From Martelella mediterranea (GTDB taxonomy: Bacteria > Pseudomonadota > Alphaproteobacteria > Rhizobiales > Rhizobiaceae): a stretch of DNA of 64,000 bases. A program made the translations under genes and the position numbers. Positions 11,960 to 50,065 of this stretch are shown piece by piece; positions within the stretch are counted from its first letter, which is position 1, and every line of letters begins with the position of its first letter. The stretch covers positions 124,001 to 188,000 of the forward strand of contig PVUG01000001.1 in assembly GCA_003001975.1 (NCBI GenBank), in the 5' to 3' direction. A model generated the notes under the pieces. That model saw only the letters and a list, made by a program, of their open reading frames with translations, searched no databases and was not told the origin of the DNA.

Positions 11960-12036
11960 TGGCGCGAGTGACGGGGCTCGAACCCGCGACCTCCGGCGTG
12001 ACAGGCCGGCACTCTAACCAGCTGAGCTACACCCGC
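11960..12036 (-). tRNA. tRNA-Asp (anticodon GTC)
   Basis: The 77-base gene includes an encoded CCA. The acceptor arms GCGGGTG and CACTCGC pair over seven positions with one G-T. The anticodon stem-loop GGCCTGTCACGCC gives anticodon GTC for aspartate. The D-loop (AGCTCAGCTGGTTAGAG) and T-loop (GGTTCGAGCCC) are standard. Confidence 0.97.
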
Positions 12037-12316
12037 GCATTTTCGCCGTTTCAGGGTCAAACGCTTGTTTTCGTGAGCGCTTGTCTGTCTGGCGTGAGCG
12101 GCTGTTTAAGGGGGACGCCTGCCACTGTCAAGCAGCTTGTCACGCATTTCTGCTTTTTTTACGCGGCCAATTTCAAGACCCCCGCAAAACCGGGAAAACC
12201 GCCGTCAAAAAAATGCGCCTCTATAAGATCAGGCCGCAGCACACCGACGGCGAAAACCACCATCATGGCCGCCCCGGCCAAAGAGCGATTCACTTTTCAC
12301 CTATCCGTCACTCACA

Positions 12317-12578
12317 CCAGGAGTCGATGATTAGGACTCATATGACAGGAGCGATTTTGAAAGCGGCCAGGCGAAAGCCGCAGTCGTAGCCCTAGCGACA
12401 GTGAGGATTTTCAACGCCGCAGGCTTTCAAAAGCGCCCTGCCCTTTAAGGGTGCGACTGGACTGGCCGCCGAGGGCGTCAAAATCTCGCGCTATGCTCCG
12501 GCATCGCTCTCACGGCATTTTCCTGCTCGCACAGCCATTCCAGCACGCATCATATGGCTCCCAATCATCGACTCTTGG
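12317..12578. mobile_element. MITE-like inverted-repeat element, copy 1
   Basis: A 262-base noncoding element bounded by imperfect terminal inverted repeats. The left end starts CCAGGAGTCGATGATTAG and the right end, reverse-complemented, starts CCAAGAGTCGATGATTGG; both continue to a shared CATATGA. The interior matches the copy at 46105-46367 along its whole length, by eye roughly 85 percent. The same dinucleotide CA flanks both ends. There is no open frame of note and no transposase nearby, so it would need help from elsewhere to move. It sits between tRNA-Asp and tRNA-Val. Confidence 0.8.
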
Positions 12579-12681
12579 CACTACACACGGCAGCGTCTTT
12601 TTGAAAAAAATTGCAGATTCCGCGAAAACCCTCTTGCGGTTTCCGCGCGTTCCGCATATTTCACGCCTCACCAACGCGGTC

Positions 12682-12757
12682 GGGCGATTAGCTCAGTTGG
12701 TAGAGCGCCTCGTTTACACCGAGGATGTCGGGAGTTCGAGCCTCTCATCGCCCACCA
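12682..12757 (+). tRNA. tRNA-Val (anticodon TAC)
   Basis: A 76-base gene with encoded CCA. Acceptor arms GGGCGAT and ATCGCCC pair perfectly. The anticodon arm CCTCGTTTACACCGAGG gives anticodon TAC for valine. D-loop AGCTCAGTTGGTAGAG and T-loop AGTTCGAGCCT are standard. It is transcribed away from tRNA-Asp. Confidence 0.97.
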
Positions 12758-46003: not shown

Positions 46004-46104
46004 CCTGCCTCCCGAAATCCGGGCTTCAATAACCAAAAACGTCTTCCCGGTCCAGAAGCGGCGTTCATGCGTTTGAAAACAGGCTTTTTTTTGACTGGGT
46101 TATA

Positions 46105-46367
46105 CCAAGAGTCGATGATTAGAACGCATATGACCGGAGCGATTTTGAAAGCCGGCTAGGCGAAAACCGCAGTCGTAGCCATAGCTACGGCAAGGATTTT
46201 CAACGACGCGGGCTTTCAAAAGCGCCCGGCCCTTTAAGGGTGCGGCTGGAATGGCCACCGAGGGCGTCAAAATCCTCGCGCGATGCTACGGCATCGCTCT
46301 GCGGTATTTTCCTACTCGGACGACCATTCCAGCGCGCATCATATGAGTCCTAATCATCGACTCTTGG
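46105..46367. mobile_element. MITE-like inverted-repeat element, copy 2
   Basis: A 263-base noncoding element with near-perfect terminal inverted repeats of about 29 bases: both ends read inward begin CCAAGAGTCGATGATTAG and continue to CATATGA. The dinucleotide TA flanks both ends. The interior matches copy 1 at 12317-12578. Internal inverted repeats include 46139-46153 with 46211-46225, 46245-46254 with 46324-46333, and small hairpins at 46174-46189 and 46280-46297. No coding capacity and no transposase nearby. Its right end touches the stop codon of the AsmA-like gene. Confidence 0.85.
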
Positions 46368-46369
46368 TA

Positions 46370-49300
46370 TTACGGCGCAGGCGGCGAAATGCCCTGTTGT
46401 TCGGCACTTCCTTCAATGATCGATTCGATCAGCCTGTCCCAGTCACTGTCGGCGGGCAGCGGCGGTTCGCCCTGCACGGCGGTCTCGCCATCGGGAGAAG
46501 GTGCTGGAATGGCGGACTGATCATCGGCGGCGTCACCGGCCTCGCGCGCGCGGCGCTGTTCTTCCTCACGGCGCAGGCGTTCGGCTTCTTCGCGCTGCTG
46601 ACGCTCGATTTCCCGCTGTTCCGCACGGAAGCTGTAGAGCGTCGCTTCACGGCGCAGGCGCTGCTTTTCAAGAATATCGGCCTGCAGCCGCTCGACCCGT
46701 GCCCGTTCGCGTTCAACCGCCCGCAAGGCCAGAAAATTGTTCACCTCCGTCAGCTCGAGGCTGCGGTCGGGATCGGCAAGCGGCCCGGAAAAACCGATGG
46801 AAAAGCCCGCATTGGCCCCCTCTTCGCTTTCCTCACCGAGCTTCAGCGCCACATTGATCGAAGCGTCAACGTCACGCCTGGCAAGATCGGTGCGCATGGC
46901 CCCGTATATCCGCGCTTCCGGCAGGTCGACGAAGACATTGCGGGCCTGCAGCACACCATCGGTAATACTGAAAGGCACAGCGACATCGCCTGCCTCAAAC
47001 GATCCGTCGACAAAGATCAGCGAACGCATTTCCTGTTCGATTGCCTCATTGGTCACCTCGGTGCCCTGCGCATCGGCCCAGGCAAGCAGCGGATCGGCAA
47101 CAGAAAGATCCAGCCCGGAAACGACCGGCGATTTCAGTGTCAACATGCCGGAACCGCTCGCCTGTTCCAAAAGTCCGGCCGCAGTATCCGCCGTCGTTTC
47201 CACGACAAGGCCGAGATCGAAGCGCCCGCTCACCACAGGTGCTCCGTTCGATTGCCACAGCGTTTCCGGCAGTGCTGCGTCGGCGAGATTGACCTGCGCC
47301 TGAAAATAACCGTCACCGCCGGCATTGCCGATCTGCAAATCACCCGACAGCGTGCCGCCCAGAAAGCGCCCGGAAAGCCCGGTCATCGAAAGCCCGCCGC
47401 CGCGAAAATCCACCGTGCCGCTCATGCCGGTCACCGGTTCCATCAGGCCGGCATCGAATGAGGCGGCCTGAATGTCGATATCGGCCTCCGCCGTACCGAA
47501 ATAGGCAGAGCCGAACGACGTATCGGGCAATCCTTCCGGGCCGAGCGTGAAATTCGGACCGTAGACCGCCTCCATCAACCATCCGAGATCGAAGCTGTCG
47601 AACGACAGCGCCCCCTCAAGATGCGCCACCGGTTCGCCGCGGGCCAGCGCAAGCCGGCCGCGCACGGCATTGCCGTCCAGTTCCCCCTCGATGGCCGAAA
47701 GCGCGTATTGCTGCGCGGAAATATCGAGCGTCGCCTTTGCCGACAGCGGAACCCCGAACGCCGTTCCCGGCACGGCGAATGCGTTCATCGCAAGGTAAGG
47801 TTCAAGATCGGGACTGGTCAGGGAAACGGCATAACGGCCGCCGAGGAAATTTTCGGTATCGAGACCGGCCTCGCCGGAGACCGAAAGCCGCGTCTCCCCG
47901 CTTGCCGCACGCAGGCCGAGCGAGACCGGCCCCGTCGCTTCGGAGCGCTCCAGCGTGAGCGAAACCTGCGCGCCGGCCGGCGCGGGGATCGGCAGCGGCG
48001 CAAACCCGGCCTGACCGAAGACAATAGCGGCATCGGGGTTCGACAGCTGAATCTGGCCACTCATGCCGCCGGGGCCCATAAGCGCATCGCGCCGCCACGA
48101 CCCGGAGATTTTGCTGTCATTGGCGCTGCCGCTGAAAACCGCGGAAACGCCTGTCCCGTCCTGTCCGAAGGCGATATCCGCCTCCAGATCGGTATTCTGA
48201 TACCAGGCGGCATTTTCCGCCAGTCTGTCGAGAACCGGATGCTCGCCGAAACGCTGTTCAAGCGTTGCAACAAAACCGGAAATATCGTCAGCCGCAAAGG
48301 TCACGCGCCCCGACCCTGTCGGCAGCGTGCGGCCGGTTTGGGCCTGCCCGGAAAGCGTGATGGCCGCACCGGCGAGATCGCCGATCTCGAGCCGGTCAAC
48401 GGTCACCGCGCCGGACTGATAGGTGAAATCCGTATCCACGACCTCGGCGCTCAGATCAAAGGCGTTTACGGTACCCGCCCGCAGTGTCGCGTGAATGCGG
48501 TGCTGGTTGAGGCCGCCATCGATATTCTCGCCGACCATCAGCCCGGCAAGGGCCCGCAATGCGCTGAGGTCGATGACATTGCCGGAAAGATCGAGGTCCA
48601 GCTGGGGTATCCCCGCGCCCTGCGACTGGCGCGAGACGGCACCATCGAGCACCGCATCCCCTGCAACGACCTGGAGATTTTCGAAAATCTGGGTGTCCGG
48701 CGTCAAATTGACATCGGCGGAAAAGCCGGCCCTGTTCAGCGCCCGGATTTCCGGCCCCACCTCGCCCGTCAGCCACTGTGACAGACCGGAAGGCTGGCGC
48801 GAGGCAACAAGCAGGGAACCGGCAAACGATGTCTCGTCACCGAGCGCAAGCCTGCCGGAAACCTCCACCTGCGTGCGCCCCGGCAGTTCGGCCGATCCGT
48901 CCTCGATCGTCCAGCCATCGCCGTCGGGCGCGGCGTCGAGAACGATGGAGCGGATCGTGGTGTCACCGGACACGAGTGCCGGCAGACGGAAGGTGACCGT
49001 GCCCGGCAGCTGCGGCACCGGCACCTGCCGCAGAAAGCCGATCAGCGTATCGAGCCTTTCGCGCGCGCTCGGCGTTGCAACACGATCCTTCTTCAGATTG
49101 GTATCGTAATCGGACAGCCGCTCGACATTGAATTGCTGGCCGTTAGCCGTCAGCAGAAACGTACCGCCCGGCCGTGTATCGAAATTCGCCTCGCCGGAAA
49201 TCACGTAAGGGTCGACCTGGGTGCCAATCTCAAGCCGGTATTCGGAAACGGCGATCGACTCATTGGTGAGTTCGAACTGGCCGCTGGCGCGCGGCGGCGG

Positions 49301-50065
49301 GATATCATCGGCATCGGCGTCATCATCGATAACCGAAAGCCGGAAACCGCCGGCATAAGCCGGGCGGCCATCCGTCAGCGTGACATCGCCTTCAAGTGCG
49401 GCCGAAACCGGCCATTCCTCGGGGTCCGCGGAAAGCCGGAGGCGCATCGTGCCGGTTTCGGCATCCGGCCGCCCCGTCAGGATGGTGAAGGCGCCCGGAT
49501 GACCGTCAAGCACGGCGCTGCCTTCCATCCGCCACGGCCCTTCGATGGCGTTTGCCGACAGCATGGCGTTGATATCGGAAAGGGTGCGCACGCGACCGCT
49601 GCCGTCATCGGCCAGGCGGATCTCGCCATCGCGCACTTCAACGTCCTCGAACACCACGCGTCGGGCCGAAAGCGGCGCATTGCCGGTGGCCGTCCACGAC
49701 ATTGCCCCGTTTTCATCCAGCGTCAGATTGAGAACCGGGTGATCCAGCAGCATCTTGAAGATGCGGACCTCGCCGCTGAGAAACGGCGCAAGCTCGGCAT
49801 CCATCGAAAAGGCATCGGCCGTGGCCAGCGGCATGCCCGACGCATCGCGGCCAACGCGAACATCATGCATGGTGATCGAGGGAAACGGCAGCACCCTGAC
49901 ATCGACCTCGCCGACAACCTCGACCTTCTTGCCCAGCGCCCGGCTTGCCTGAACCTCGAATTCCTTGCGAAAACTGCCCCAGTCGACGAAATACGGGATA
50001 ACCAGCGCCGAAAACAGCAGAAGAACCAGAAGCGCTCCGATGAAAACAAGTATTCGTCCCAGCAA
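46370..50065 (-). CDS. AsmA-family protein
   Basis: A very large (1231 residues) protein of the AsmA/TamB-related group, proposed to move phospholipids between membranes or influence outer-membrane assembly. It has one N-terminal membrane helix (ILVFIGALLVLLLFSALVIPY), then a long periplasmic beta-rich region with many alternating short hydrophobic strands, an AsmA C-terminal-like domain around residues 850-1090, and a charged coiled-coil tail (about 1110-1180, rich in Glu/Arg/Gln) ending in a Pro-rich stretch. The start is TTG at 50065 with AGGGAA upstream. The TAA stop at 46370-46372 abuts the inverted-repeat element. Confidence 0.88.
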   Translation of the reverse strand: MLGRILVFIGALLVLLLFSALVIPYFVDWGSFRKEFEVQASRALGKKVEVVGEVDVRVLPFPSITMHDVRVGRDASGMPLATADAFSMDAELAPFLSGEVRIFKMLLDHPVLNLTLDENGAMSWTATGNAPLSARRVVFEDVEVRDGEIRLADDGSGRVRTLSDINAMLSANAIEGPWRMEGSAVLDGHPGAFTILTGRPDAETGTMRLRLSADPEEWPVSAALEGDVTLTDGRPAYAGGFRLSVIDDDADADDIPPPRASGQFELTNESIAVSEYRLEIGTQVDPYVISGEANFDTRPGGTFLLTANGQQFNVERLSDYDTNLKKDRVATPSARERLDTLIGFLRQVPVPQLPGTVTFRLPALVSGDTTIRSIVLDAAPDGDGWTIEDGSAELPGRTQVEVSGRLALGDETSFAGSLLVASRQPSGLSQWLTGEVGPEIRALNRAGFSADVNLTPDTQIFENLQVVAGDAVLDGAVSRQSQGAGIPQLDLDLSGNVIDLSALRALAGLMVGENIDGGLNQHRIHATLRAGTVNAFDLSAEVVDTDFTYQSGAVTVDRLEIGDLAGAAITLSGQAQTGRTLPTGSGRVTFAADDISGFVATLEQRFGEHPVLDRLAENAAWYQNTDLEADIAFGQDGTGVSAVFSGSANDSKISGSWRRDALMGPGGMSGQIQLSNPDAAIVFGQAGFAPLPIPAPAGAQVSLTLERSEATGPVSLGLRAASGETRLSVSGEAGLDTENFLGGRYAVSLTSPDLEPYLAMNAFAVPGTAFGVPLSAKATLDISAQQYALSAIEGELDGNAVRGRLALARGEPVAHLEGALSFDSFDLGWLMEAVYGPNFTLGPEGLPDTSFGSAYFGTAEADIDIQAASFDAGLMEPVTGMSGTVDFRGGGLSMTGLSGRFLGGTLSGDLQIGNAGGDGYFQAQVNLADAALPETLWQSNGAPVVSGRFDLGLVVETTADTAAGLLEQASGSGMLTLKSPVVSGLDLSVADPLLAWADAQGTEVTNEAIEQEMRSLIFVDGSFEAGDVAVPFSITDGVLQARNVFVDLPEARIYGAMRTDLARRDVDASINVALKLGEESEEGANAGFSIGFSGPLADPDRSLELTEVNNFLALRAVERERARVERLQADILEKQRLRREATLYSFRAEQREIERQQREEAERLRREEEQRRAREAGDAADDQSAIPAPSPDGETAVQGEPPLPADSDWDRLIESIIEGSAEQQGISPPAP

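Follow-up and report, generated by a model that had tools for sequence, protein, structure and literature searches.

A probable non-autonomous, TNA-duplicating element of Martelella and the folded core that it has in common with elements of other Pseudomonadota

In the 64,000-nucleotide stretch of the Martelella mediterranea genome that was analysed here (the window), a non-coding inverted repeat occurs twice, which raises the question of what kind of element it is, whether it moves and what might move it. An initial annotation had placed two copies of 262-263 bp at 12317-12578 and 46105-46367 and had read them as a non-autonomous transposable element (MITE) with no coding capacity. Both copies are present at those sites and are 88% identical, and the longest open reading frames lying wholly within them encode 29 (copy 1) and 37 (copy 2) amino acids, in agreement with the absence of coding capacity; the lengths needed correction, as the true limits of both copies are wider (Table 1). 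Copy 1 sits between genes for tRNA-Asp (11960-12036, minus strand) and tRNA-Val (12682-12757, plus strand), a region adjoined by nuoA-C-like open reading frames (the nuo names were assigned by eye). The left end of copy 2 lies partly within a sigma-70-like promoter match (9/12) at 46091-46119, one such match being found versus 0.2 in shuffled sequences.

Table 1. Features of the two copies of the element and of the adjoining gene, in window coordinates
Feature	Position	Strand	Description
Copy 1, full element	12315-12580	+	266 bp; more diverged, 88% identical to copy 2
Copy 2, full element	46103-46369	+	267 bp; ends TACCAAGAGTC...GACTCTTGGTA
Copy 2, left target duplication	46100-46102	.	TTA
Copy 2, right target duplication	46370-46372	.	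TTA; doubles as the TAA stop (minus strand) of ORF 46370-50065
Copy 2, left end arm	46103-46133	.	Pairs with right end arm; predicted fold and pair counts (helix 1)
Copy 2, right end arm	46339-46369	.	Predicted fold and pair counts
Copy 2, left hairpin	46134-46229	+	Core module 46144-46217 (L003:1540-1613); fold, pair counts and core model
Copy 2, small central hairpin	46230-46240	.	CCCTTTAAGGG; predicted fold
Copy 2, right hairpin	46241-46338	-	Inverted relative of left hairpin; fold and pair counts
Copy 2, core module of right hairpin	46253-46327	-	L003:1649-1723; core model
AsmA-family ORF	46370-50065	-	Its stop codon coincides with the right target duplication of copy 2

The two window copies belong to a dispersed family. 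The source genome (4.63 Mb in 46 contigs) holds nine full-length copies and short remnants, and matches to the element occur in ten of 60 other genomes (seven of the same genus, together with G015, G023 and G053), so that the search for further copies at home and in relatives, proposed as a check on mobility, gave a positive answer. Full-length copies in sister Martelella are 91-94% identical and one deleted copy 88% identical, the matches in G015 and G023, which belong to other genera, reach 73-85% identity over parts of the element, and that in G053 is a single match of 24 bases. One copy is carried by a plasmid of M. mediterranea DSM 17316, and five of the 12 other Martelella genomes have no match to the element. 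Two remnants of the source genome are a lone 36 bp end (G000:C8:102164-102199) and a degenerate fragment bounded by TAA-TACC and GGTA-TAA (G000:C5:47979-48045). Contigs C7 and C8 of the same genome (L008 and L010) both terminate at the same element copy with an identical flank, which indicates that the assembly is broken there and that C7 and C8 are probably contiguous; the copy terminating C7, the flank of which is 100% shared with the C8 copy, was not counted.

The element ends in TACCAAG...CTTGGTA and is flanked by a 3 bp target duplication of the form TNA. Among 25 tabulated copies (20 from Martelella, three from G015, one from G023 and one from an Ensifer canadensis plasmid), an identical TNA stands on both sides of TACCAA...TTGGTA in 21, the copies that have no exact duplication being window copy 1, L075, L030 and L084; an internally deleted copy of G007 (L021), with no exact duplication as judged by eye, was left out of this set. 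In copy 1 the ends are degenerate (CA...CA) and the flanks read TCA and CTA. The dinucleotides CA and TA flanking the copies had been taken as a hint of a target duplication: a short duplication does exist, but it is the 3 bp TNA, and CA and TA are the outermost bases of the element itself. Empty sites were sought by joining the flanks of the nine copies of the source genome with a single duplication, searching these in 13 Martelella genomes and aligning the sites found. For four of the nine, sister species provided uninterrupted alignments with clean empty sites that contain one TNA (L005 in four relatives, L002 and L009 in three each, and L007 in six of seven), and the alignments for L004, L006 and L008 contain indels close to the junction. 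Empty sites in sisters, as anticipated for a mobile element, are thus seen for these four members of the family and weakly for the window copies, the empty-site alignments of which are all gapped and of low identity (67% for copy 2 and 68-76% for copy 1). This presence or absence between species indicates that family members inserted, or were precisely lost, after these species split. Taken with the copies, the ends and the target duplication, it demonstrates that members of the family have moved.

For each strand of copy 2, a cloverleaf is predicted in which the end stem encloses two large hairpins, of about 95 and 98 nt, separated by a small central one; its two strands have z-scores of -11.7 and -12.7, and copy 1 has -6.6. 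The large hairpins are related to each other in inverted orientation. The cloverleaf is maintained across the family by compensatory changes. Indeed, among 24 full-length elements (24 of the 25 copies, L038 being omitted for a replaced stretch), standard pairs fill 96.9% of the pair cells versus 90.5% in shuffles, a count that is favoured by the structure having been taken from L003, itself one of the rows. Changes on both sides were found in 38 of 105 pairs versus 14.6 in shuffles, with none of 500 shuffles as high, and a sliding-partner control yielded 5-11 pairs changed on both sides. The covariation is present in both inner hairpins (helices 2 and 6) and in the ends, and is clearest in the end arms (AGTCAATG, GGATCAGTG and GGACCGATG), where other letters appear in other genera and are mostly matched on the opposite side. 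The agreement of one arm with the other is overall greater within elements (0.930) than between them (0.775), as it is in G001 (0.924 versus 0.845, p = 0.009), with no clear excess in G006 (0.959 versus 0.917, p = 0.20). Concerted evolution of the two arms within the source genome is unsupported (0.923 within and 0.920 between elements, p = 0.49).

Both large hairpins hold a core consisting of AGG..ACCGNAG, a variable stem and CGAGGATTT..AAC. The core pattern AAACCGNAG-(15-28)-CGAGGATTT is matched in 13 of 398 Pseudomonadota genomes and its reversed control in one of 398. A stem lies between the core halves in seven of the 13 pattern-matched genomes (judged partly by eye), and the matches in G060, G726, G514, G491, G466 and G547, in which no stem was seen by eye between the halves and which were not folded, were dismissed as chance. 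A covariance model built from 30 modules (R1), in which the inner stem is missing owing to loops misplaced in the alignment, matches 44 of the 398 genomes, six of which had provided training modules; 12 candidates were scored per genome and the E-values are rough. Elements with the core occur in alpha- and betaproteobacteria and in further Pseudomonadota, its named carriers including plasmids of Mitsuaria, Cupriavidus, Comamonas, Diaphorobacter and Ensifer, and a single query (from G784) found no core in 20,395 E. coli records. It was also matched in two viral contigs. Two one-hairpin elements lie 2.4 kb apart on one viral contig (L288:7206-7278 and L288:4773-4845), one of them with TTAA on both sides of its GGAACCTCTGAACAA ends. 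Interior-loop columns are slightly more conserved than paired columns (0.82 versus 0.75, in 17 of the 30 modules and with some loops misplaced by the alignment), which at most suggests that the bulges of the core are read.

The position of the core within the elements that carry it is similar from one to the next. End repeats were located at 18 of 30 core loci, at lengths of 265-277 bp (12), 159-168 bp (five) and 123 bp (one), and none was found at the other 12 when at least 17/20 was required in the range 110-320; the scan made no use of the distance to the core, but the ends had to enclose it. In all 24 elements measured (24 of 26 sources, those set aside being L214, L287 and the first L288 hit), the start of the core model lies 41-48 bp inside the end belonging to that core, a range obtained by taking the pair nearest an offset of 43 where the typed end string had several matches, and from elements that are not all independent (two are from G766, three from G584 and two from Martelella). 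Seventeen of the 24 are 263-270 bp long and have two hairpins, and seven are 159-165 bp long and have one; their ends differ, and include the TACCAA, GAGCCTGTT, GAACGTGTT, GAGCGTCAT, AGTGTCC, TAGTGTAGTG and GGAACCTCTGAACAA types. Six of the 17 long elements (L203, L208, L209, L218, L224 and L201) had only one module scored with R1, yet the fold of each contains two large hairpins. Element length is not fixed everywhere: of the 26 facing end pairs in G766, only 13 have a spacing of 266-269 bp, and the remaining spacings are 86-252 and 280 bp.

An IS with matching ends was looked for and none with TACCAAG ends was found among the genomes and loci searched: 30 loci retrieved out of 56 PF13340 matches (13 Martelella genomes), 30 retrieved out of 40 PF01609 matches (four Martelella genomes plus G015), and, by end pattern, 13 genomes of the genus (three single ends in G003, G001 and G005 being left out) and 394 genomes of the family. 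Single end-like matches outside Martelella (L048-L050) were rejected, as they have no partner and occur at the same level as a control pattern (two hits). The mover of the Martelella copies is therefore one that we infer from other features. IS1031-type branches of the IS5 family make TNA duplications, and the 3 bp TNA duplication of the element points to an IS5-type DDE transposase, likely of the IS1031-like branch, as its source; a transposase of another family could also be responsible. Other Martelella genomes carry a 931 bp IS1031-like IS (L091, L092, L093, L102 and L109) with ends GAGCCGGATT / GAGCCGGATTCAAAAGTT and duplications TGA, TTA and TCA; the end sequences set the two apart, being of the GAGCC kind in IS1031-like elements and TACCAAG in the Martelella copies. 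One sister family does have ends in common with an IS5-family IS of another genome. Its elements in G766 end in GAGCCTGTTNANNATCTTTTCAT (61 ends at no more than three mismatches), and an 850 bp segment of G636 with ends GAGAGCCTGTTTACGATC, which are common to this GAGCCTGTT family, contains a 184-residue open frame that scores above the cut-off of an NCBIfam IS5-family transposase model. No target duplication accompanies those ends of the segment, and its genome is not that of the G766 elements; G766 itself has no PF13340 match.

The Martelella genome G007 also has a second family, of small palindromes, the ends of which are of the TNA/TACCAAGG...TTGGTA type (L289:2247-2288 and L290-L294). It comprises six copies of 122-125 bp, one of 77 bp and one of 42 bp, the last consisting of two bare arms only, and the TNA duplication is exact in six of the eight; the existence of palindromes of these lengths suggests that TACCAA may suffice as a terminal signal.

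The MITE reading of the initial annotation is borne out, as the element is non-coding, multi-copy and bounded by terminal inverted repeats, has a 3 bp TNA duplication and is matched by empty sites in sisters. In the form that we consider probable, it is a non-autonomous TNA-duplicating element of 267 bp, moved in trans by a DDE transposase, in which the inverted hairpin cores would provide a subterminal signal. The enzyme that moves the element, or once moved it, would most probably come from the IS1031-like branch of the IS5 family. We infer a role for the core as a folded subterminal signal, and with it a function for the hairpins, as the best reading of the position of the core: it would be recognized in a folded strand, as single-stranded DNA or an extruded cruciform, and would act together with the end sequence in transposition or in copy maintenance. 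The element may retain the core and let its outer arms change to suit the IS5-type transposase that happens to be present. A wider reading, which is somewhat doubtful at present, is that of a phylum-wide mobile class defined by a folded core located about 41-48 bp inside each end, the arms of which would have been swapped or have diverged for different IS5-type transposases. Such a class would take in the end types TACCAA with TNA, GAGCCTGTT with TNA, AGTGTCC, and GGAACCTCTGAACAA with TTAA, with one or two hairpins per element and a core that would be read as folded DNA during transposition.

The element might instead be an ordinary MITE, a deletion derivative of an IS in which the ends alone matter and the interior is passive. 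The ends, the duplication and the copy number all fit this explanation, the G007 palindromes show that short elements with TNA and TACCAA need not carry the core, and half of the G766 end pairs depart from the common spacing. It leaves aside, however, that elements with unrelated ends have similar length and core position, that covariation affects both inner hairpins and not the ends alone, and that the core is common to genomes across Pseudomonadota, and we consider it unlikely.

A structured RNA or 3'-end element kept by the host, such as a terminator or an mRNA stabilizer, the mobility of which would be incidental, would account for the strong fold on either strand. It would also account for the placement of the duplication, which in 12 of the 25 copies, copy 2 among them, serves as the stop of an open frame 100 codons or more in length, compared with 22 of the 90 other TNA sites lying no more than 60 bp away (p = 0.009). 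Since TAA and TGA both fit TNA, the duplication restores the stop and such sites partly follow from target choice; with 22 of 90 neighbouring TNA sites also being stops, the excess is modest. Presence or absence in sister species, including the Martelella genomes devoid of the element, also argues against this explanation, as does the lack of a match to any Rfam family on the elements searched, where tRNAs and one SRP RNA were found beside them only, and the single terminator-like site around copy 2 versus 0.6 in shuffles. It appears highly improbable. REP/BIME-type palindromes moved by a RAYT (Y1, IS200/IS605-like) transposase can be given hardly any credence: the hairpins do adjoin genes and come in inverted pairs, as in BIMEs, but a 267 bp element with long end repeats and a 3 bp target duplication differs in size, tags, end repeats and duplication from REPs, which are 20-40 bp hairpins with a GTAG or CGTC tag (PMC3733652).

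With regard to known systems, the non-autonomous element proposed here has the short length, absence of coding capacity, terminal inverted repeats, fixed-length duplication, dispersed copies and empty sites of a MITE; an autonomous IS with the same ends was found solely for the GAGCCTGTT sister family, and not for TACCAAG. Bru-RS1/2, RIME and ABC repeats are palindromic repeats of related bacteria, and the likeness to them, by general description alone, lies in this palindromic nature. Bacterial MITEs, which include RUP, NEMIS, ERIC and Nezha, are described in excerpts of PMC3733652 as being of 70-300 bp, with end repeats of 15-30 bp, non-coding, often adjacent to genes and strongly folded, as is the case here, whereas a two-hairpin cloverleaf with a core common to families with different ends does not appear in those excerpts. 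No description of such a folded-core class was found in the accessible portions of the open-access literature (including PMC3733652, PMC2267715 and PMC4666352), and a literature query with the core and end letters returned no paper. What is new here, and had escaped the initial annotation, is the conserved folded interior common to elements with differing ends.

The interiors of MITEs are usually regarded as leftovers. Here, the interior is the common part and the ends vary, and elements of distant Pseudomonadota have the core at a similar position and are often of equal length. Should the core prove to be a signal, the recognition of folded strands in DDE-type transposition would become testable, and many unannotated repeats of Pseudomonadota would form one class.
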